Assembly (NCBI RefSeq): GCF_000017505.1
Contig: NC_009675.1
Location: 4,282,501-4,346,500, forward strand
Direction: 5' to 3'
Origin: Anaeromyxobacter sp. Fw109-5
GTDB taxonomy: Bacteria; Myxococcota; Myxococcia; Myxococcales; Anaeromyxobacteraceae
DNA length: 64,000 nucleotides
Below, piece by piece: positions 3,393 through 13,344 of the stretch. Made by a program: the position numbers and the translations under genes. A model generated the notes under the pieces. It was not told where the DNA came from and ran no database searches. It was given only the letters and a program-made list of their open reading frames with translations. Each line of letters opens with the position of its first letter. Positions within the stretch are counted from its first letter, which is position 1.

Positions 3393-3403
3393 GGGAGACC
3401 GGC

Positions 3404-3442
3404 AAAAAAGAGAAGAGGGGCTGGCGTTGCCGCCAACCCCTC
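3404..3442 (-). terminator. rho-independent terminator, ancestral tRNA-Gly terminator
   Basis: Read leftward, a hairpin with 12-nt arms and one mismatch (plus-strand arms GAGGGGCTGGCG 3415-3426 and CGCCAACCCCTC 3431-3442, loop TTGC) is followed by six Ts (A-run 3404-3409 on the plus strand). It directly follows the partial tRNA-Gly 3' end at 3453, as expected if this was the tRNA terminator before the island inserted. It may also stop the amidotransferase transcript coming from the left. Confidence 0.8.
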
Positions 3443-3452
3443 TCATTTACGC

Positions 3453-3473
3453 GAGCGGGAAAAGGGATTTGAA
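3453..3473 (-). repeat. att-like direct repeat, truncated tRNA-Gly 3' end (left boundary)
   Basis: These 21 bases are identical to 13157-13177, the 3' part of the intact tRNA-Gly gene (T-arm and acceptor 3' strand). No other tRNA part is present here. This is the usual footprint of tRNA-targeted integration, in which the incoming element restores the tRNA at one end and leaves a cut-off 3' end at the other. Confidence 0.85.
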
Positions 3474-3611
3474 TCGGGGATAACGCGTGCCGTTACGAAG
3501 ACTTCGCCAAGCCGTCCGGCAGGTGACCGCCGTCCGCGCGAGCGCGTCGGCGAGCGGAAACCATGGATGAGGTCCGTTCATCTCTCGGCAGCGCTCGGAG
3601 GGCTTTCAAGC

Positions 3612-3923
3612 CTACACGCCGCGCAGCTTCACAACCTTGCCCCCCACCCGCGCGACGACTTGGAGCTCTCCGCCGAGCCCTTCGACATACCGCCGCAGAG
3701 TCGACAACAGGTGATCCTCGCGTCGCTCGGCTCGCGACAACTCCGACTGTTTCATCTTCGCAGCGCGGGCTACCTGCTCCTGGGTCTTGCCGGTTGCCTG
3801 CCGGAGCTCGCGAAGGTTCATCTCGAGGATCTCGCGCTCCGCGAATCGCTCGGCCTCGGCGATCTCCTCGCGCGTGAAGAGCCTCTTCTCGATCTGCTTC
3901 CAGCTCTTGGTCTTGGCCTTCAT
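3612..3923 (-). CDS. HigA-like antitoxin, XRE helix-turn-helix
   Basis: A 103-residue antitoxin and repressor that should bind and neutralise the toxin encoded just upstream and repress their shared promoter. The start is the ATG at 3923, which overlaps the toxin stop by four bases (ATGA). The N-terminal part (KSWKQIEKRLFTREEIAEAE) is helical. The HTH is ELRQATGKTQEQVARAAKM then QSELSRAERREDHLLSTLRR, the XRE pattern of HigA antitoxins. The C-terminal part (GGELQVVARVGGKVVKL) forms short strands. The toxin-first order with tight coupling is normal for HigBA-type pairs, unlike relBE. Confidence 0.85.
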   Translation of the reverse strand: MKAKTKSWKQIEKRLFTREEIAEAERFAEREILEMNLRELRQATGKTQEQVARAAKMKQSELSRAERREDHLLSTLRRYVEGLGGELQVVARVGGKVVKLRGV

Positions 3924-4273
3924 CGCCCGCGTCCCTTCTCCAGTTCGTCGAGGTGCGCCTCCCATAGCTGCTCAGCCCTGGAGATCGTCCGTTCGTAGAA
4001 GCGCTTGTCGTTCCCCTTGTCGCCGCCGAGCAGGAGCAACGCCTCCCGCCTAGGATCGAACGCGTAGATGATCCGGAGCGGGCTTCCACCGCGTTTCGGG
4101 CGAAGCTCGCGCAGCGGGTGCTTCGTCCCCTTGAGGGCGCTCGGATACGGCTCGCCGAGCGCAACGCCCACCTGCTCGAGGATCTTCACGACTTGAAGCA
4201 CGGCCTTCTGCTCTCGGTGGCTCAAGCCCTCGATCCACTGCTCGAACTCGTCGGTCGCATTGACGACGGCCAT
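3920..4273 (-). CDS. HigB/RelE-superfamily toxin (phage Gp49-like)
   Basis: A 117-residue RelE-fold toxin expected to cleave mRNA on ribosomes, judged by family. The N-terminal helices (EFEQWIEGLSHREQKAVLQV) lead to a four-stranded core: HPLRELRPKRG, SPLRIIYAFDPRREALLLLG, and GDKGNDKRFYERTISRAEQL, which is the typical Gp49/HigB end. The basic residues in LRELRPKRG and KGNDKRFYERT match the RNA-contacting face. It is read first in a two-gene operon with the XRE antitoxin. AGAGGA lies seven bases before the ATG. Both genes look intact, so the pair may still stabilise the island. Confidence 0.85.
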   Translation of the reverse strand: MAVVNATDEFEQWIEGLSHREQKAVLQVVKILEQVGVALGEPYPSALKGTKHPLRELRPKRGGSPLRIIYAFDPRREALLLLGGDKGNDKRFYERTISRAEQLWEAHLDELEKGRGR

Positions 4274-4312
4274 GCGGTCCTCTACTGCTCCCGTCCGACA
4301 TCGAGCCGACCG

Positions 4313-4349
4313 AATATAAGCTGTGGCTCATATGTCGTCAAGCTCATAT
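4313..4349 (-). promoter_or_regulatory. higBA promoter with overlapping operator
   Basis: Read leftward, TTGACG (4336-4341) and TATATT (4313-4318) are 17 bp apart, close to the sigma70 ideal and unusually AT-rich for this genome. An inverted repeat with arms ATATAAGC and GCTCATAT (4314-4321 and 4326-4333, one mismatch) covers the -10 and spacer, and a third GCTCATAT half-site lies at 4342-4349 over the -35. This is where a HigA dimer would bind to autorepress. Confidence 0.75.
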
Positions 4350-4496
4350 CCGAGCTGCCGCGGATGGCCGACTTCGCCCGTCTGGGCGTCGCTCTGGAGC
4401 GCGCGCTCGGCTGGCCGGCGCCTCGTTCATCGACGCCTACACGGACGCGAACAGCGCCGCGCACGACGTTGCCTCGACGTGTTGCGGCCCCTGCTG
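4341..4496 (+). pseudogene. debris of a phage/plasmid DNA primase-helicase-like protein
   Basis: The plus strand reads ELPRMADFARLGVALERALG followed by WP, a motif I recall from integrative-element ATPase/primase proteins (PRMADFAxWxxAxExALxWPxGxF). The rest continues in another frame as SFIDAYTDANSAAHDV and then stops at 4496. The fragment is only about 50 codons, is frameshifted and lacks any ATPase motif. It is a dead remnant of an older element in the island. The match is from memory and needs a search. Confidence 0.45.
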
Positions 4497-4653
4497 AACG
4501 ACGGTCGCCGTCCCGCGCGCACTGGCGCACTCCGGGACGGTGGGCCAACCGGTGCCGCCTGGGGCGGTCATGGGGCCGTCCACCACCGCGGAGCAGGACG
4601 TGCAGCACGGCATCAGCATCATCCCGCCGCCGGCGACCACGGCGGTGGAGACG

Positions 4654-4677
4654 TAGACCTAGACCTAGACCTAGACC
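4654..4677. repeat. hexanucleotide tandem repeat, four TAGACC copies
   Basis: Four perfect copies of TAGACC in a row, just before the 29-bp direct repeat at 4692. The position between gene debris and a repeat boundary suggests replication slippage in non-coding island DNA. Confidence 0.8.
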
Positions 4678-4691
4678 AATAGACCCGGACT

Positions 4692-4720
4692 CAGAGTAAT
4701 GACGTTCTTGCTGTGACGCG
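4692..4720 (+). repeat. 29-bp direct repeat, left copy (possible IS66 left end)
   Basis: Identical over 29 bases to 12755-12783 and in the same orientation. From 4697 it begins GTAATGACG; GTAA is the usual first tetranucleotide of IS66-family ends, so this may be the terminal repeat of the IS66 copy that follows. No matching inverted copy was found after the transposase genes. Confidence 0.75.
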
Positions 4721-4800
4721 CTGGGTAACCGCCCGGGGATCGACGTCTGGCAGGGCCGACCGGCCGGGCTGATGCTCCTCCGCTCACGACGGAGGACGGC

Positions 4801-5187
4801 ATGGCCGAGCAGGATCGGACGCGGTGGACGAAGCTTGTGGCGGACTTCGAGTCGAGCGACCTGACGCAGCGCGACTTCGCGACGGAGCGCGGGATCTCAC
4901 TCAGCCACCTGCGGTACTGGATCTACCGGCTCCGCAAGGAGTCGCGTCCGCTCGTGACGGAGGCGGCCAGGTCGTCCGATCAAGCCCCCGTGCAGGTGAC
5001 CGCGGAGAAGGGCTCGCGTCTGCTGCCGGTGCGCGTGGTAGCGTCCGCGGCGAAGCCGCGGACCACCGTGATCGCGGCGGCCGGCGGCGACGAGCTCCTC
5101 GAGCTGGCCCTCCCGTCCGGCGTCCGAGTCCGCTTCCCCGCGGGAACCGACCTTCGGTACCTCCGGGCCCTCGCCGCGGCGCTGTAG
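4801..5187 (+). CDS. tnpA: IS66 accessory protein TnpA
   Basis: A 128-residue protein with an N-terminal helix-turn-helix of the IS66 Orf1 type: WTKLVADFESSDLTQRDFAT and GISLSHLRYWIYRLRKE. The C-terminal part (LALPSGVRVRFPAGTDLRYLR) is the usual short beta segment. Family members are needed with TnpB for efficient transposition. GACGGAGGACGGC precedes the ATG. The stop is three bases before the tnpB start. Confidence 0.9.
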   Translation: MAEQDRTRWTKLVADFESSDLTQRDFATERGISLSHLRYWIYRLRKESRPLVTEAARSSDQAPVQVTAEKGSRLLPVRVVASAAKPRTTVIAAAGGDELLELALPSGVRVRFPAGTDLRYLRALAAAL

Positions 5188-5190
5188 CCC

Positions 5191-5586
5191 GTGATCACCA
5201 TCCCGCGGTCGGTCCGCATCTTCATCGGGAAGAACCCGATAGACATGCGGAAGTCCATCGACGGCCTGATGAGCGTGGTCCAGGAGGAGCTCCGCCAGGA
5301 CGCCTACTCGGGCCATCTCTTCGTGTTCCTGTCGAGGCGCGCGGACCGCGTGAAGATCCTCGCCTGGGACAAGGGCGGCTTCGTCCTTCTCTACAAGCGA
5401 CTCGAGCGCGGGCAGTTCAAACTGCCGCACATCGGGCAGGACACGATGGCCGTCGAGATCGACTCGACACAGCTCGCGATGCTGCTCGACGGGATCGAGT
5501 TCGGCCGCGTTCGTCGGCCCGCGCACTGGGAGCCGCCGTCCCAGGCGGATCGTCCCGCCTGCCGTCCCATGGACAAGCCGATCTGA
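5191..5586 (+). CDS. tnpB: IS66 Orf2-like protein TnpB
   Basis: A 131-residue protein starting at a GTG three bases after tnpA. It carries the Orf2 signature: RIFIGKNPIDMRKSIDGLM, SGHLFVFLSRRADRVKILAW and KGGFVLLYKRLERGQFKLP. Its biochemical role is unsettled in the family, but it is required with TnpA and TnpC. The gene is full length and undamaged. Confidence 0.92.
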   Translation: MITIPRSVRIFIGKNPIDMRKSIDGLMSVVQEELRQDAYSGHLFVFLSRRADRVKILAWDKGGFVLLYKRLERGQFKLPHIGQDTMAVEIDSTQLAMLLDGIEFGRVRRPAHWEPPSQADRPACRPMDKPI

Positions 5587-5605
5587 GTGTGATCGAACAT
5601 GGTTG

Positions 5606-7153
5606 ATGGGGAGCGGCGATCACGACTGCGAGTGGCGCGAGCGGGCCGAGAGCCTTGCCGTTCAGCTCGACGCCGCGCAGAAGACCATCGCCTCCCAGAC
5701 GCAGACGATCCAGGCCCAGAGCGAGTCGCTCACGAAGCTGAGCGAGCAGTTCGCATCGGTAAAGGGCACCGTCGAGAAGCTCCAGCGGCACGTCTTCGGG
5801 AAGCGCTCCGAGAAGATTACGCCGCTCGCGACGGCGCTCCGTGACCCCGCGCGCGCCGAGGCCGACCGCATCGCGGCGCTGCAGACGCGGCGGGAGAACG
5901 CGGAGAAGAAGCGCCAACTCGTCACCCGGAAGATCGAGCACAAGGTCCGCGAGGACCAGAAGGTCTGTCCGAAGTGCGGAGGCCGAGACTTCTCAAAGCT
6001 CGGCGACGGGGCCATGAGCGAGCTGTACGAGCTCGTTCCGGCGATCGTGGAGCGACAGCTCCACATCCAGGAGAAGTTGCGCTGCAAGTGCGGCGAGACC
6101 GTCATCACCGCGGACGGGCCGACGAAGGTCTTCGACAAGGCCCGCGTCGGACCCACCTTCATGGCGCAGGTCGCGGTGTCGAAGTGCGCCGACGCGTTGC
6201 CCCTTCATCGCCAGGCAAAGGCGTACAGGCGCGTCGGCGTACAGGTGAACGACTCGACGCTCGGCGACTACTTCCACCGCACGGCCGAGATCACCAAACC
6301 CATCTCCGACCGGCTGCTCGACGTGGTCGCGGAGAAGGAGATCGTCCTCGCCGACGAGACGTCGCACCGCGTGCAGGCGAAGGGGAAGACGCGCCGCTCG
6401 TGGCTCTGGAGCTTCATCGCAAAGGACGAGGACGAGCGCGAGATGATCGCGTACGTCTTCTCGCCGAGCCGCTCGAGCGAGACGCCCGAGCGCGTGCTGG
6501 AGGGCACCTCCGGCAAGCTCGTCGCCGACGCGTACAAGGGCTACGACCGCGTGACCATGCCCGGCCGGCGTGTCCGCGCCGGCTGCCTCGCGCACGTCCG
6601 CCGGAAGTTCTTCGATGCCCAGTCCGTCGCGCCCGATGCCGCGAAGCAGGCGATGGACTTCATCCTCGAGGTCTACAAGATCGAGCGGGCCGCGCTCGAC
6701 GCCGATCTCCTCGGCACGCCCGAGCACCTGGAGATGCGCCAGAGCGCGAGCCGCGCGGTGATGGACGACTTCAAGGCGTGGCTCGACGCGGAGCAGCCAC
6801 GGCATCCGCCGAAGGGGCCGATGGGCGAGGCGATCAACTACGCGCTCGGCCAGTGGGACGCGCTGACGCTCTTCCTCACCGATCCGCACCTGCCCATCGA
6901 CAACAACGCCTCCGAGCGCGCGCTCCGCGTGGCCGCGCTCGGACGGAAGAACTTCCTCTTCGTCGGCACGAACGAAGCCGGCGAGAACCTCGCCGGCCTG
7001 TACTCGCTCATCGCGACCTGCGAAGCGAACGGCGTGAACCCAGTCGACTACCTCGCCGACGTGCTCATCCGCGTGCAGACGCACCCGGCCTCGCAGATCG
7101 ACGAGCTGCTGCCGCACAACTGGACGCCCCCACCGATACGCGCGCCCTCGTGA
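5606..7153 (+). CDS. tnpC: IS66-family transposase TnpC
   Basis: The 515-residue DDE transposase of the element. A coiled coil lies at about 15-60, then the FGKRSEK motif, a zinc-binding region (CPKCG near 121 and CKCG near 160), and the RNase H-fold core with the catalytic residues in ADETSHRV (first Asp), VADAYKGYD (second Asp) and DNNASERALR (Glu). The C-terminal NLAGLYSLIATCEANG is the IS66 tail. An in-frame TTG lies directly before the chosen ATG. All catalytic positions are present, so the enzyme looks active even though the element's right end is missing. Confidence 0.95.
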   Translation: MGSGDHDCEWRERAESLAVQLDAAQKTIASQTQTIQAQSESLTKLSEQFASVKGTVEKLQRHVFGKRSEKITPLATALRDPARAEADRIAALQTRRENAEKKRQLVTRKIEHKVREDQKVCPKCGGRDFSKLGDGAMSELYELVPAIVERQLHIQEKLRCKCGETVITADGPTKVFDKARVGPTFMAQVAVSKCADALPLHRQAKAYRRVGVQVNDSTLGDYFHRTAEITKPISDRLLDVVAEKEIVLADETSHRVQAKGKTRRSWLWSFIAKDEDEREMIAYVFSPSRSSETPERVLEGTSGKLVADAYKGYDRVTMPGRRVRAGCLAHVRRKFFDAQSVAPDAAKQAMDFILEVYKIERAALDADLLGTPEHLEMRQSASRAVMDDFKAWLDAEQPRHPPKGPMGEAINYALGQWDALTLFLTDPHLPIDNNASERALRVAALGRKNFLFVGTNEAGENLAGLYSLIATCEANGVNPVDYLADVLIRVQTHPASQIDELLPHNWTPPPIRAPS

Positions 7154-7219
7154 CGTCGCCTGGTGCACGGTCCGATGTAGCATCGGCTCGCCGGCGGATC
7201 CTTTCGGAGGTCGACGGGC

Positions 7220-7602
7220 ATGGATGTGGAACGCTTTTTGGACCCAGGGTACCAGTTCGTTCGGGCTTGCCTCGTCGATGAGAAGGGCTTTCCGCCGTTT
7301 GCGGTGCTCTTGGCTCCCGATCAGACGACGTCAACGCTCATCGCGGACGATGGCAACATCGAGACCGTTCGAGCGGCTATTGTTAACCGCGACCGGAGCG
7401 GCATTCTCGCGGTCGGGCTCTTCTCGATGGTCGACCTGCAAGCCGAACAAGGAGCCACGCAGCGCGCCATCTGCCTTCATCTCGACGTGCCGCAGGGCTT
7501 GAACAGAATCGTTCTCACGCCGTATCGGCTCGAAGGCGGCACACTCGTGACGGGGCAGCGTTCATCGTCGAGGCTTCGGAGCGGATCCTGCCGGCACGTT
7601 GA
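7220..7602 (+). pseudogene. small hypothetical gene with a probable -1 frameshift
   Basis: The ATG at 7220 has GGAGG 13 bases upstream. About 112 sensible codons follow: MDVERFLDPGYQFVRACLV, GFPPFAVLLAPDQTTSTLIA, AAIVNRDRSGILAVGLFSMV and QGLNRIVLTPYRLEGGTLV. At a GGGG run near 7554 the sensible frame changes, and the next frame ends naturally with AFIVEASERILPAR and a stop at 7602. The unshifted frame runs on into antisense DNA of the helicase gene, with arginine-rich shadow sequence. I do not recognise the family. The next gene is convergent, so they are not one operon. The shift could be a real mutation or a sequencing error in the homopolymer. Confidence 0.5.
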
Positions 7603-7806
7603 ATCGACGCATCGAATCCGGCCGCAACACGTCGATCACCGGCCGGTTACCGCGCTGGCGCTCGCTGCAAGGTCGCGGACGCTGTCGCATCGCGCACTTA
7701 CGCACGCATTCCGTGACGCGGTCGTCGTGCGTCACCAAGCGTCACGAATACTATGGGTTGGGGCCTTGGGGCCCTTCGGTCACGAATCGTCGGGTGACGG
7801 TGCGCA

Positions 7807-10800
7807 TCAGTCGGAGCGGCGAAGCCTCAGGCCGGAGACTCCGTACACGACGACTCGGTGCTCGATGAGACGCTGGATCGCTTGCTTGATCCGCGGCGTC
7901 CCGTCCTGGGTACGCCGCAGTCCTAGCGCCTCGCGGACCTCCGCCGCGAGGTCATCCTCCGCCATCGAGCCGGCGCGGTCGAGAATCAGCCGTACAGCTT
8001 CCTCGAGTTCCTCGAGCGCGACCCACTCTGCGCCCTGGTTCAGGATCGCCCTGTTCCTCGGCCGCACTGGCGACGAATCTGCGTAAAGGAAACCGTCCTT
8101 GCGGCTGACCATGCCTGGCCTGGTAGCGGCGCGGATGCCCTGCTCGGCAGCAGAGACGAGGCGCGTGCCGCGCCGTTCGTGGTTCCAGAACTCAATGAGC
8201 CGATCCACGACCTCGTCATAGTGAATCGGCCCCTCGACCGCGACAATGCGGGCAGCCTCCTGCGCGACCGTTGCGGCGTTCGCCTCGGCCAACGAGGTGC
8301 GGTACATCCGTCCGGCGGAAGCCTTCCTGTACACCGGCAGTTCGGGGCGGACGAACGGCGCCTCGTCGCCCTCGATCTGAAGAGCCGGTTGAGCGGCCGT
8401 CGGAACGGGCGGTGGCTCTGGGCCGTCCTCCACCGGCTGGGAGAGCACGGAGTCGGGTACCACGACGTCCGGTTCGTGGAGGCGCTCGCCCAACTCGGCC
8501 AGCGTCCTCTTCAGCCGCTCCAGCGTTCGAGAGCGGTCCCTGAACCAGTCCGTCGACCAGACGCGGATGATGACCCAGCCGCGCTGCTCCAGAACGTGCT
8601 GGCGCAGCCGGTCTCGGTCCCGTGCGCATGGTGCGGCGTGGTAAGCGGCTCCGTCGCACTCCACGCCCGCAAGGTAGATGCCGGGCCGATCGCGGTTCCG
8701 CACGCCGATGTCGATGCGGTACGCGCCGACCCCGACCTGGCGATCGACGAAGTATCCCATGTCCGCGAGCGCTTCACCGACCTCGTCCTCGAACGGGCTC
8801 TCGGCGTCCGCCACCGTTCCTGTCGCGGACGCCATCATCTTCCCCGTCTCCGCGAACCGTAGGAAGTCGGCCAGGAGCGCGGGGCCCTGGGTGGCGACGG
8901 ATGTCGGGTTGATGTCGGCGGCCCGCAGCGAGCTGAAGACCCGCATCTGCTTGCGCGCACGGCTCACCAGCACGTTGAGGCGCCGCCAGCCATTTTCACG
9001 GTTCAGCGGGCCGAAGTTGTACCGGAGCCTGCCGTCCGGCTGCTTGCCATAGGTGACGCTCAAGAAGATGACGTCTCGCTCGTCGCCCTGAATGTTCTCG
9101 AGGTTCTTGACGAAGAACGGCTCGTGCCTCGCTCGATCGAAAAACTCCTCCAGCGAGGGGTCTTCCCTTCGGATCCGCTCGAGCTCGTCCCAGATCGCCA
9201 TCTGCTGACGTTGGCTGAACGTTCCGACCCCGAGCGTGAGGTCGGGCTTCGTCTTGAAGTGCTCGACGACTGCGTTAGCGATCCGGCTCGCCTCGGCAGG
9301 ATTCAAACCCGCGCCGACGTACTGACCGTCCTCGACAAACTCGAACCTGACTCCACGATCCGGCGCGTCGGTGGCGGCGCTGGGGAAGACAACGAGCCGG
9401 TTGCCGTAGAACTTCTCGTTCGAAAACTGGATGAGCGACTCGTGAGCGCTCCGGTAGTGCCACTCGAGGTGCGCCTGGTGAAGGCCGACGCCCTGGAACT
9501 CCTCGAGCACGCTCTCGGTCTCCTCGAGCACCGGCGCGCCCTCCTCGTCCACGTGGGAGGCGGCGGCGCCCGCCTGAACCGCGAAAAAGTTCGTGGGCGG
9601 CAGCTGCTTCGGGTCACCCACCACGACGAGCTTCTTCCCGCGAGAGACCGCGGCCACGGCGTCCTCGGTCGGAAGCTGGCTCGCCTCGTCGAACACGACC
9701 AAATCGAAGTCCGCGGTGGGCACAAGGAACTGCGACACGCTGAGCGGGCTCATGAGGAAGCATGGCTTGAGCGCCATTACCGCCTCGCGCGCCTCCCGCA
9801 GGATCACCCTGAGCGGCCGGTGTCGTTTCTGCTTCGCGAGCTCCTTCGACAGGAACGTGCGGTGGGCCGAGGAGCTGCTCGCGAACCGCCGCTGCCCCGT
9901 TTCCCGGAGCCGCGAGACTAGCTCGCCCTGCTTCTCCGCAAGGAGCTGCGTGTCGAGCTTCTGGAACTGGCGCCGGCGCTCTTCGTGAGTGCCAATCGTG
10001 AAGTCCGCGAGTGCCGGGACGGACGGAAGCACCGCATCGAGCCACGAACCGTAGAGTGCGCGCCGGAACGCCGCGCCGACGTGGTCCGGCGCGATCTCTC
10101 CTCGAAAGGCCGCCTCGGCAATCGCTGCGGCTGGCGAGTGAGCGAGCCCGTTGGCCGCTCGGACGAATGCTGCCCAAGAGGCTCCCAGCGTCAGGTCCCG
10201 AGTGACCTCGCCCAGCCGAGACCGAACCCAGGCGACCGGTTCGTTCTCAAGGTACCCTTGGCGCCACGCGAGCAGCTGACGAACCTCCGCGAGCGCGTCC
10301 GTGAGGGCGTTTGCGGTACGCGCGAGTTCCGTCGGAAGACTGTCCCCCTGCGCGTTGCGTTGAGCGCGTTCGTACCCCGCTTCGCCGAGGGTGCCGTGAC
10401 GGGCGACGAGCGCATGGAAACGTGCGAGCCAATCGAGACGCTTCTCGAGGTCCCCCCAGTCCGAGGCGGCGCCACGCCAGTCACTCCCGAACCATTCTCG
10501 GGCATCCGCATGCGCGTCCAGAGCTTCACTTCTGCGGCGCCAGCTTGGAACCGCCTTGAGGTCCGCGACCTGCTCGACGACACCGAGCTTCCCGCCATCG
10601 CGGCGCATGGCCTTCATGCGCCGCCGCACGTCGCGATACCGGGGAGCGAAGAAGGCCAGGAACGCGAACGCGGAGCCGAGCTTCGCATCGACGTACCCGA
10701 GGTCGTCCTCGGATAGCGACTCGATCATCTCGCCCCGGTACTTCTCCGCGATCCGCGCCGTGAACGCGGCCACCTGCCGGCCTTCCTTGATGAGCTCCGT

Positions 10801-12658
10801 CGTGTCGCGCGGTGGCGAAGCCCAGGCTGGGTCTCGCAGGAGGGCAAGATTGATGCCGGGCGACGCATCGAGGTGCTCTGCGAGCTCGACGATCTCGGGA
10901 ACGCTCCGAATCGTCGCGGGCTCGCGAACTCCGAACCGCTCATGGACCTTTCGGGCCTGGGCGACGAAGTCCTCGGCGAGTTTCGCCGTGACCCCGACAA
11001 CCTGCCCGATGCGCTCAGCGATCGATTCCGAGAAGGCGGTGATCCTCGACTCCCGCCATCCGTTCTTCCCGACGGGAGCAACCGCGACCCCCTGGGTCTC
11101 GACGTGCCGGGTCCGCTCCCGCAGGTCCGCGAGGTGGTCAGCGGTGAGCGCCCGCGGATCGCCCGGATACGGGAATCTCGGGGCGTCGTAGACCGCCTCG
11201 AACGCGCCGACGGCCTCGTAGGTCGTGCAGTTGAGGGCCGTCCGCCGCGTGTGGACCTCGCGCGCGTACGCATTGAGGTGCCCGCGCGCCCTGGCGAGCT
11301 CGGTGGCGCTCTTGACGACTCCCTTCGTGGCATCGCCGCTCCGCTCGAGCGCGGTCCGGAGCGATTCGATCACGTCCGACTTGCGGGCCTTGGTCGAGTG
11401 AAGCTCGAGGCAGAACTCCCCGAGACGCGCGTCCACGAGACGCCGGTGGACGACCTCGAGCGCCGCCATCTTCTCGCTCACGAAGAGGACGCGCTTGCCG
11501 GCACCGATCGCATCGGCGATCAGGTTCGTGATCGTCTGGCTCTTCCCCGTTCCCGGCGGTCCGTGGATGACGAGGTCGTGCCCGGCCGCGACGGCGGCGA
11601 TCGCGCGCAGCTGTGACGAGTCGGCATCGACAACCTGGTTCGTGATCTCCGGCGGGTACTCGGCGTCGAGATCGAGCCCCTTGATCTCCGCTGGCAGATC
11701 GTGCGCGGGTTCTCCTTCCTTCAGCACCACCCTGCGGACGAGGGGATGCATGGCGAACGCTGCCTCGTTCTGCTCGATGTCCTTGTAGATCACGAGCTTC
11801 TGGAAACTGAACGGAGCGAGGACGATCTGGTCGGTGACTCGCCACCTTTTCGAGTTGCTTCACGCGCTCCGCGACCGCCGTGAAGAACGGGACGAGGTCG
11901 AACGACTGCTCGTCGTCGCCCGGCTCCGGGATGACGGGAAACGAGTCGAACTGGTGGATGCGGCGCAGGTACTCCACGAGCGATGGATTCACCATCGGCT
12001 CGTCTTCCGCGAGCATGAGCTTGTATCCCGCCTTCGCGCTTGCACGCTCGAGGGTGACGGGGACGAGAACGAGCGGCGCCCGCAACGGTTCCTGGGATGA
12101 GTCCGATTCCGTGTAGTGCAGGAACCCCAGCGCGAGGAAGACCGTATTGACGCCCTGCTCCTCGATGCTCATCCGCTGCTGCTCGGCGATGCGGCGAAGG
12201 CTGAGGTCGAGGCCCTCGGGCGTCGTGTGGCACTGGAGGATCGTGTCGCGGTGCTGGTCGGTGACGTCCTCGCGCTCGTATGGCGTGAACCCAGGGGCGG
12301 CGACGTCTCCCGTGGCCTCGGCTTCCGGCAGACCAAGCTCGAGTCCGAGTTGCCCTTCGCCGGCCTCTGCCGGCTGGGGTCTCTCGCCGTCCTTGGCGGA
12401 GGGGAGCACCGCCGAGAAGGTGAAGGGCCGCTCCTCCCCCACGAGCAGCCGGTACACCTCAGCAGGCTTCTCATCGACGATCGTGAGCGTCGAAACCTTC
12501 GTCGGGCGGTAGTTCAGCGCACGGTTACGCCCCGTCAGATCCAGAAGCCGACCGCGCCACGTGGCGAACGCGCGTTCAAGGAGGCGTTGCTGGCGTTGCC
12601 TCGCCGCATCCACGGGTGCTTCCGTGTATGAGGCCGCTCCGGATTGTTCGCTGGGCAT
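7807..12658 (-). pseudogene. giant DUF4011/COG1112-type SF1 helicase with Vsr-like nuclease and DUF3320 domains, frameshifted
   Basis: Two overlapping frames make one protein of about 1600 residues. The N-terminal part (12658 down to about 11850) is DUF4011-like (WRGRLLDLTGRNRALNYRP). The remainder (about 11850 to 7807) holds an SF1 helicase: Walker A GPPGTGKSQT near residue 365, Walker B VFDEASQLP, motif III VVVGDPKQLPPT, ENIQGDERDVIFLS, and motif VI RLNVLVSRARKQ. A PD-(D/E)XK/Vsr-like nuclease region follows (SPFEDEVGEALADMGY, YRIDIGV, GVECDGAAYH), then a DUF3320-like C-terminus. The frames join at a GAAAAGG tract (plus-strand 11844-11850): removing one base gives QLEKWRVTDQIVLAPFSFQK. Such proteins are common in defence islands; the phage role is inferred. 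The gene is probably inactive unless the shift is a sequencing error. Confidence 0.8.
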
Positions 12659-12754
12659 GCGGGAACTCTCCCGAACGTCGCGCGTTCCCCTCGGAGCCTA
12701 GCACGAGGCCGGACGCGACCGTTTCGCCAGTGAGTGCGAATGAGACCCCCGACC

Positions 12755-12783
12755 CAGAGTAATGACGTTCTTGCTGTGACGCG
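12755..12783 (+). repeat. 29-bp direct repeat, right copy
   Basis: Identical to 4692-4720 in the same orientation, and directly joined to the integrase remnant. With the left copy it encloses the IS66 element, the small gene and the helicase. Immediately to the right an 8-bp inverted repeat (12789-12796 and 12800-12807) sits at the junction. Confidence 0.75.
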
Positions 12784-12796
12784 AAGGTGTGTCGTG

Positions 12797-12946
12797 AGAC
12801 ACGACACTTTCGCGTCCCACCTTGTCATGCGCAGCGTGGCCCTGAAGGCCGTCCAGGAGCTCCTGGGGCATGCCACCATCGACGTGACGATGAGGTACGC
12901 ACACCTCTCGCCGAACGTGAAGAGGGACGCGGTCCGGCTGCTCGAT
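12797..12946 (+). pseudogene. tyrosine recombinase (integrase) C-terminal remnant
   Basis: Fifty codons match the end of phage-type integrases: RHDTFASHLVM (box II Arg-His), LKAVQELLGHATID (His of LGH), TMRYAHLSP (nucleophile Tyr) and KRDAVRLLD. The usual RHTFASHL carries an extra Asp (RHDTFASHL), and everything upstream of box II is missing: the 29-bp repeat abuts it. It is a dead remnant of the integrase that probably inserted the island, left beside its tRNA target as is usual. Confidence 0.75.
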
Positions 12947-13009
12947 GGGCCCTCGACTTCGGCGCGCTACGCGCGCCTACGTTCGGGACGAACTGGGGCG
13001 CGGACCGCC

Positions 13010-13032
13010 CGCGGTTCGACAGGCTCACCGCG
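13010..13032 (-). repeat. dispersed hairpin repeat, core GAGCCTGTCGA
   Basis: Read leftward the core GAGCCTGTCGA is flanked by complementary 6-bp arms (CGCGGT / ACCGCG). It has the same core as 29352-29384 and 57902-57930 with different arms, so it belongs to a dispersed family. It lies between the integrase remnant and the tRNA terminator. Confidence 0.7.
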
Positions 13033-13124
13033 AGCAGAGAGGAGCGACCCACCAGCGGAGAGGAACGGGCACCCATGACTAGGCGCCGCTTCCGCGGTTC
13101 CCGACGGGCACGGAGCAGAAAATG

Positions 13125-13150
13125 AAAAAGCCCCCGGCGGACCGGGGGCT
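13125..13150 (-). terminator. rho-independent terminator of tRNA-Gly
   Basis: Leftward from the tRNA 3' end comes a perfect 9-bp stem (plus-strand arms AGCCCCCGG 13129-13137 and CCGGGGGCT 13142-13150, loop CGGA) followed by five Ts (A-run 13125-13129 on the plus strand). It belongs to the island-side copy of the tRNA end and terminates the present tRNA transcript. Confidence 0.9.
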
Positions 13151-13154
13151 TGAC

Positions 13155-13229
13155 TGGAGCGGGAAAAGGGATTTGAACCCTCGACCCTCGCCTTGGCAAG
13201 GCGATGCTCTACCACTGAGCTATTCCCGC
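13155..13229 (-). tRNA. tRNA-Gly, anticodon GCC
   Basis: The reverse complement folds as a complete tRNA: acceptor GCGGGAA pairing with TTCCCGC, a D-arm with AGCTCAGTGGTAGAGC, an anticodon stem-loop with loop TTGCCAA (anticodon GCC), and a T-arm containing GGTTCAAATCC. The 3' CCA is encoded (13155-13157). It is the integration target of the island: its 3' end is duplicated at 3453-3473. Consensus promoter and terminator elements flank it. Confidence 0.97.
13157..13177 (-). repeat. att-like direct repeat inside tRNA-Gly (right boundary)
   Basis: The 21 bases identical to 3453-3473, covering the T-arm and acceptor 3' strand of the tRNA. It marks the right junction of the island. Confidence 0.85.
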
Positions 13230-13251
13230 AGAATTCCTGCGAAGGACGCCG

Positions 13252-13280
13252 GTTATAGAGGCCCTCCGGGATGGTGTCAA
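13252..13280 (-). promoter_or_regulatory. tRNA-Gly promoter
   Basis: Read leftward, TTGACA (13275-13280) and TATAAC (13252-13257) are separated by 17 bp, a near-perfect sigma70 promoter, with the -10 ending 22 bp before the tRNA 5' end at 13229. Confidence 0.9.
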
Positions 13281-13344
13281 GGGTCCTGCTCACGGGCTCG
13301 CGAGGCAGCGGCGAAGGCCGCCGGTGCTAACATCCGCGGCCCTC

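Follow-up and report, generated by a model that had tools for sequence, protein, structure and literature searches.

A decayed genomic island at the tRNA-Gly(GCC) insertion hotspot of Anaeromyxobacter sp. Fw109-5 and the terminators that accompany tRNA-tail copies in its family

The DNA analysed in this study, termed the window, is a 64,000-nucleotide stretch (C1:4282501-4346500, C1 being NC_009675.1) of the closed 5,277,990-bp genome of Anaeromyxobacter sp. Fw109-5 (G000), and all coordinates are window positions unless stated otherwise. Its only tRNA gene, which encodes tRNA-Gly(GCC), borders a 9.7-kb island. To describe this island as foreign DNA at the end of the tRNA gene, a worn-out mobile element with genes of anti-phage type, is mostly right. 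Its two ends are marked by the following features.

3404-3444, minus strand: distal terminator, read as a hairpin with a 14-bp stem and an A-run (a T-run for minus-strand transcripts).
3453-3473, minus strand: distal attachment (att) core, an exact 21-mer of the tRNA-Gly 3′ end that has lost the encoded CCA.
3474-3600, no strand assigned: distal arm of the element, parts of which are also present next to a partial tRNA copy of strain PSR-1.
12804-12955, plus strand: tyrosine integrase remnant, the C-terminal catalytic part (PF00589), convergent with the tRNA.
about 13124-13151, minus strand: proximal terminator, read as a hairpin with a 10-bp stem and now serving tRNA-Gly.
13155-13229, minus strand: intact tRNA-Gly(GCC) gene with encoded CCA.
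13157-13177, minus strand: proximal attachment core, the same exact 21-mer inside tRNA-Gly.

An initial annotation of this DNA had linked the cut-off tRNA-Gly tail to the intact tRNA by a 21-bp direct repeat, with a terminator on the tRNA side of each copy, and both statements hold. The 21-mer is exact at its two positions and occurs at no third place in the 5.28-Mb genome, and base composition predicts only about 1e-7 matches. A hairpin followed by a T-run lies on the tRNA-3′ side of both copies (at about 3404-3444 and 13124-13151). A direct repeat that includes the tRNA 3′ end at both ends is one criterion for a tRNA-targeting island, and a change of base composition at the repeats is another. 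When the range from -15000 to 40000 was searched in 50-bp steps, blind to the repeats, the best low-GC segment was 3400-13300 (66.8% GC inside and 72.7% outside), with ends about 55 and 125 bp from the repeats, so that the composition border coincides with them.

A third criterion, an integrase adjoining the tRNA, is represented by a C-terminal remnant only, as the initial annotation had also recognized; it matches no more than the end of PF00589 (profile positions 133-169 of 172). Its DNA is 76% identical to a region beside the same tRNA in a related genome (G002), and its protein sequence is 76-79% identical, over about 55 residues, to integrases at the tRNA in two others (G023 and G021). 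No relaxase was found among the island proteins that were scanned against families, which represented a subset of the open reading frames (ORFs). Attachment sites are retained and a working integrase is absent, as in a cis-mobilizable element (CIME); without that enzyme the island could move only in trans or together with a neighbor, and it is CIME-like in this respect. Between the integrase remnant and the terminator (12950-13061) lies a dispersed short repeat, short stretches of which match many places in this and related genomes.

The locus was compared among 24 genomes of the family, nine of them from the genus, in which G000 is Fw109-5, G001 is strain PSR-1 and other G numbers denote further relatives. 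The intact tRNA-Gly stands before the same heptosyltransferase gene in five relatives (G001, G002, G003, G005 and G006), and the other three genus genomes (G004, G007 and G008) lack this neighbor. Pairwise comparisons counted hits no shorter than 120 bp with E values of 1e-10 or better. Among Fw109-5 and the five relatives, the similarity spanning the tRNA ended 0-69 bp past the tRNA 3′ end in all 15 pairs, and 12-40 bp past it in the pairs that include Fw109-5. Further left, only scattered blocks were shared, such as the integrase remnant (Fw109-5 and G002), blocks of the toxin-antitoxin region, and a 2.96-kb block (G002 and G005). A continuous syntenic block across 3480-13150, which the initial annotation had named as grounds for rejecting an island, was looked for in the eight genus relatives and none was seen. 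Since different DNA follows the tRNA 3′ end in Fw109-5 and its relatives, the tRNA is an insertion hotspot, and this hotspot is family-wide.

Parts of the island recur elsewhere in the genus. The toxin-antitoxin DNA at 3580-4352 is 95% identical in PSR-1, where it lies beside a partial tRNA copy, and the distal arm (3453-3494 and 3502-3584) recurs beside a partial tRNA copy at G001:C102, with 3453-3494 also present at G001:C340. A homologue of the toxin-antitoxin pair in G002, and of the antitoxin part only in G005, lies further left and adjoins an M48 peptidase gene. The Fw109-5 M48 peptidase gene (80% identity to the gene flanking the site in G002 and G005) is at C1:3084705, beside three tRNA-Glu genes. 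As a separate observation, the left flank of tRNA-Gly varies by species, with the M48 peptidase gene in G002 and G005 and a GATase gene in Fw109-5, as if the site were a rearrangement breakpoint too. Also left of the island, C1:4278171-4280789 (window -4329 to -1711) encodes an 872-aa protein that matches DUF4062, NB-ARC and TPR and has no PADLOC match.

Copies of the tRNA tail were then counted across the family. The exact 21-mer has 15 copies in eight of the nine genus genomes, and a 19-mer inside it has 34 copies in 19 of the 24 family genomes, 18 in intact tRNAs and 16 partial; of the five genomes that lack it, two (G012 and G017) have a completeness of 98% or more. Five partial copies share a contig with an intact tRNA and 11 do not. 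Each copy was examined for a simple hairpin of at least 8 bp that starts no more than 12 nt from the tRNA end, with T-rich sequence after it. Such a hairpin was present at 33 of the 34 copies, which are not independent events as copies within one genus are related, compared to 71 of 4000 stretches drawn at random from 53.5 kb of the Fw109-5 genome. The remaining copy (G009a) has a 19-bp stem and too few T residues. This random-position control is preferable to the earlier hairpin z-scores, which use mononucleotide shuffles. A terminator with each tRNA-tail copy, family-wide, is the new point of this analysis, and judged from these sequences the elements seem to bring their own terminators. Searches of the open-licence literature turned up no account of this hotspot or of att arms that carry terminators.

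A different explanation would be vertical inheritance of an ancestral terminator at the tRNA, with insertions occurring just downstream and elements bringing none. The short-stem hairpins at the tRNA are indeed alike in Fw109-5, G003, G006 and G005, where pairwise similarity extends 34-69 bp past the tRNA. However, short and long hairpins each occur both at intact tRNAs and at partial copies. Moreover, five genomes carry an intact and a partial copy on one contig, namely Fw109-5, G002, G005, G009 (54 kb apart) and G021 (C225), and the two hairpins differ in four of them, being alike in G005. In G002, the far copy has the short hairpin identical to that of G005 and a long, different hairpin stands at the tRNA, a pattern that fits an old terminator pushed away and a new one brought by the insertion. 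We consider a purely vertical origin of the terminator at the tRNA quite unlikely. The distinction of ancestral from present terminators, as claimed in the initial annotation, is borne out in G002. In Fw109-5, with a short hairpin at the tRNA and a long one at the distal copy, the age order is ambiguous because G003, G006 and G005 likewise have short hairpins at the tRNA.

Integrases at the intact tRNA sites were compared as well. In gene calls from a simple codon-score script, of which mostly the first 60-150 residues were read, nine candidate integrases were found beside intact tRNA-Gly copies, and all nine point at the tRNA. Eight of them match PF00589, and the G001 candidate has no Pfam match; an adjoining PF00589 ORF is present at eight of the 18 intact sites, and Fw109-5 has the remnant. 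The called ORF overruns the hairpin in three of the eight Pfam-supported integrases (G009a, G019 and G023), for which a terminator "between" integrase and tRNA is an inexact description. When relatives were sought again within 3 kb of the tRNA by tblastn with the eight family integrases, G007 was found to have a nearly complete, broken integrase, and G004 (C23) one that is 80% identical to that of G005 and lies at a contig end. Smaller pieces were found in G003 (48 N-terminal and 19 C-terminal residues), G011 (21 residues) and G010 (16 residues).

It could also be argued that the copy at 3453 is a stray partial duplication of the tRNA and that homologous recombination or transposition brought in the DNA between. 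The lack of a conserved left flank at the tRNA, the non-functional integrase of the island and the unproven pairing of the 11 partial copies on contigs that have no intact tRNA would all be compatible with such an accident. Against this, a hairpin lies on the tRNA-3′ side of each of the 15 other partial copies, the PF00589 ORFs of eight relatives terminate at the tRNA 3′ end or slightly within it, and sites in G013 and G021 share core-adjacent arms of about 150 bp with 93-97% identity, beyond which similarity ends. A stray duplication is very improbable in our view.

The best explanation of the locus is site-specific insertion of a mobile island by a tyrosine integrase at the tRNA tail, followed by decay, to which we assign a probability of about 0.87. 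In this process, the integrase would have recombined the tRNA-tail copy of the element (attP) with the chromosomal tRNA tail (attB). The tail of the element, with its CCA and terminator, would have become the present tRNA end, and the old tail and its terminator would have moved to the far side (3404-3473); the distal terminator at 3404-3444 is probably the tRNA terminator displaced in this way. We infer the recombination itself, and the direction of the terminator exchange in Fw109-5, from the arrangement of these parts. The two att ends are well supported because the repeat is unique, GC content changes at the ends, an integrase remnant is present, the distal arm and the toxin-antitoxin pair are shared with an island end in PSR-1, and other DNA stands at the tRNA in five relatives. 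The genomic island with two att ends that the initial annotation proposed is upheld on these grounds.

The empty site that it predicted was not found, and this is among several results that weigh against insertion as described. First, no empty site with the Fw109-5 left flank was seen in the five relatives that share the right flank, nor among six heptosyltransferase loci from a contig search (four from Anaeromyxobacter, partly the same genomes). Second, the GATase gene of the left flank stands beside this tRNA in no genome examined, and the six best GATase loci (orthologues sought in 60 genomes, Fw109-5 included) contain neither a tRNA nor the core in their 1.5-kb flanks, G004 and G008 being draft contigs. 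Third, the encoded CCA is kept in 32 of the 34 tail copies, the exceptions being the distal copy in Fw109-5 and a copy in G008. Fourth, the proximal hairpin of Fw109-5, resembling those of G003, G006 and G005, could be the older of the two. Fifth, no integrase relative was found within 3 kb (1.7 kb in G020) at the intact sites of G001, G006, G016 and G020. The further refuting case of the initial annotation, a lone partial tail in a relative with the Fw109-5 left flank, was not seen, a result to be read with 11 of the 16 partial copies lying on contigs that have no intact tRNA.

Compared to known systems, this is a genuine, decayed island of an established type, a tRNA-site, CIME-like element. 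CIMEs of Streptococcus likewise keep their att sites, have lost the integrase and accrete in tandem at target 3′ ends, with the most decayed units farthest from the target, according to the available portions of two reports (PMC7563491, PMC5704250). Unlike them, the Fw109-5 island has no integrative and conjugative element (ICE) or integrative and mobilizable element shown as a parent, and its tail copies carry a terminator, a feature that those portions do not mention (PMC7563491, PMC5704250); in PMC5704250 the term "terminator" is absent altogether. For ICEKp1 and four other tRNA-targeting ICEs, the available part of one report describes insertion at the tRNA 3′ end by which the native terminator is displaced to the opposite end of the element with no replacement, and a tRNA promoter that drives the same-strand integrase gene (PMC13023037). 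In contrast, the island integrase is convergent with the tRNA and a hairpin stands at the tRNA end, so the locus differs from ICEs whose tRNA loses its terminator on insertion. The island is ordinary in itself, and the site is of greater use, as its terminator sequences may record the order of insertions at one tRNA across the family.

Partial copies in other family genomes bound small units. On G013:C170, two partial copies lie 1261 bp apart within a 275-bp repeat (93% identical), and the unit between them has one ORF with a Gp49 match below the cut-off. On G021:C238, partial copies in tandem delimit units of 3.3 and 2.4 kb with AbiEi/AbiEii and a PDC-M21B protein. Partial copies in PSR-1 adjoin Pycsar cyclase and effector genes, and the island in G002 holds a PDC-S54 protein; the defence-gene scan covered hand-picked proteins and gives no measure of enrichment. 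On the PSR-1 loci concerned (L067 and L068), two Pycsar-type gene pairs adjoin two of the partial tRNA-Gly copies, and the TIR effector of L067 looks truncated (109 aa, compared to about 290-310 in the models).

A broader proposal is offered tentatively, at somewhat less than even odds: in the tRNA-Gly(GCC) elements, the att site would be a complete tRNA tail that can be exchanged, comprising the 3′ end, CCA and a terminator hairpin where it meets a convergent integrase gene, and each insertion would swap the tRNA terminator and leave a stack of tails. The result would be a cassette-like array that has tRNA-tail joints and collects defence genes, some of its units being 1.3-3.3 kb long (toxin-antitoxin or AbiE-type, with no integrase recognized). 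Inspecting this locus in new Anaeromyxobacteraceae genomes may be an inexpensive route to defence genes, as several copies adjoin Pycsar, AbiE, PDC families and toxin-antitoxin genes (candidate or known).

Tandem copies of this kind raise the possibility that the Fw109-5 island is the innermost unit of a larger and older composite reaching left, and that its distal terminator came from an earlier element and not from bare chromosome. Tandem partial copies are known in G013:C170 and G021:C238, and the distal hairpin of Fw109-5 has a long stem, a trait shared with several other partial copies. To the left of the tRNA, same-strand similarity to Fw109-5 resumes only about 31 kb (G003) and 40 kb (G003 and G006) away and is reordered, an inverted block of 67% identity with G006 lies at -14.4 to -12.8 kb, and two further copies of a palindromic repeat found inside the island precede the window start by 10.5 and 8.7 kb. 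However, GC content is 72.6% from -20000 to 3403 with the change point at 3400, the eight family integrases have no tblastn match within 35 kb to the left of the distal core, and the genome has no further exact core copy. A composite is unlikely on balance, while keeping appreciable weight, and the single decayed insertion described above is preferred.

The cargo listed in the initial annotation (a toxin-antitoxin pair, an IS66 element and a giant helicase-nuclease) was confirmed by family matches. Its "small frameshifted gene" lies inside IS66, and it had left unremarked that the helicase itself is frame-split near 11.79-11.85 kb and that the tRNA site is a hotspot. The genes other than IS66 are as follows.

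3612-3923, minus strand: helix-turn-helix antitoxin, PF13560 by domain match (scanned as 3612-3965).
3920-4273, minus strand: toxin of the Gp49/RelE type, PF05973 by domain match.
7807-11793, minus strand: C-terminal 1328 aa of a DUF4011 helicase-nuclease, with domain matches to a superfamily 1 (SF1) helicase, the MTES_1575 nuclease and DUF3320.
11793-12658, minus strand: N-terminal part (DUF4011) of the same helicase-nuclease in another frame; the ORF continues to 11138 out of frame.

For the toxin, there is also a match to the C-terminal part of the PADLOC NsnC model (E 1.2e-9, positions 191-291 of 294). For the helicase-nuclease, DUF4011 falls in the ORF at 11138-12658 and the helicase, nuclease and DUF3320 in that at 7807-11793, which makes one gene across two frames, with the frame change between about 11793 and 11852. 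PDC-S37 is the best PADLOC model for both ORFs (profile positions 6-215 and 236-1538). The Hhe, ProA and PDC-S37 anti-phage helicase-nucleases have the identical domain order (DUF4011, SF1 helicase, MTES_1575 nuclease, DUF3320), which is found here across the two ORFs. Unlike them, the island gene is split by a frameshift and either half falls under the NCBIfam cut-offs, with 1131 of 1500 bits (ProA) and 776 of 2000 bits (Hhe) for the C-terminal part and 157 bits (ProA) and 100 bits (Hhe) for the N-terminal part. The frameshift is probably real, with sequencing error as the alternative, because the genome paper for Fw109-5 states an error rate of less than 1 in 50,000 (PMC4319575). In the anatomy of the island, it would be one of the later steps of decay. 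This cargo (the toxin-antitoxin pair and the DUF4011 helicase-nuclease) may have an anti-phage role.

The remaining features are those of the IS66 element and of the palindromic repeat.

4684-4724, plus strand: left part of the palindromic repeat, split by IS66, from repeat comparison.
4725-7650, plus strand: IS66-family element (2926 bp, GTAA ends), flanked by an 8-bp target duplication, CGCGCTGG, at 4717-4724 and 7651-7658, from its domains and ends.
4801-5187, plus strand: IS66 tnpA, by family match.
5191-5586, plus strand: IS66 tnpB, PF05717 by domain match.
5603-7153, plus strand: IS66 tnpC transposase, PF03050 by domain match.
7220-about 7600, plus strand: IS66 passenger reading frame between tnpC and the right end.
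7651-7763, plus strand: right part of the palindromic repeat, from repeat comparison.
12744-12783, plus strand: half copy of the palindromic repeat adjoining the integrase remnant, from repeat comparison.
12778-12816, no strand assigned: near-perfect palindrome of 39 bp at the joint of the half repeat and the integrase remnant, from sequence reading.

The IS66 family is defined by tnpA, tnpB, tnpC, GTAA ends and an 8-bp target duplication, all of which the island copy has. Unlike the family pattern, it holds a passenger frame between tnpC and the right end, which gave no Pfam or NCBIfam match when scanned at 7220-7579. A 92%-identical IS66 in G006, likewise with an 8-bp target duplication, has a different 187-aa frame in the passenger slot (window 7153-7650 compared to L050 3959-4522). 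From the anatomy, IS66 would have inserted later into the palindromic repeat between the toxin-antitoxin pair and the helicase.

The palindromic repeat is about 135 bp long, and the complete copy ends in ACCCAGAGTA and TACTCTGGGT. With 40 of 158 candidates scored, it occurs in only one 23-kb region of the genome, always in one orientation, at the split copy, the half copy, and two places outside the window (C1:4272048-4272205 and C1:4273840-4273950); in the same scoring, G006 has one weak 34-nt match. Integron attC sites were considered as an identity for these repeats and dropped: there are four places with spacing that is not cassette-like, and the DNA fold of the complete copy is no better than that of shuffled sequences (z -0.61). 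The N-terminal part of the integrase would have been lost at the half copy, again as a later event, and the 39-bp palindrome at the start of the integrase remnant may be the scar of a fold-back rearrangement.

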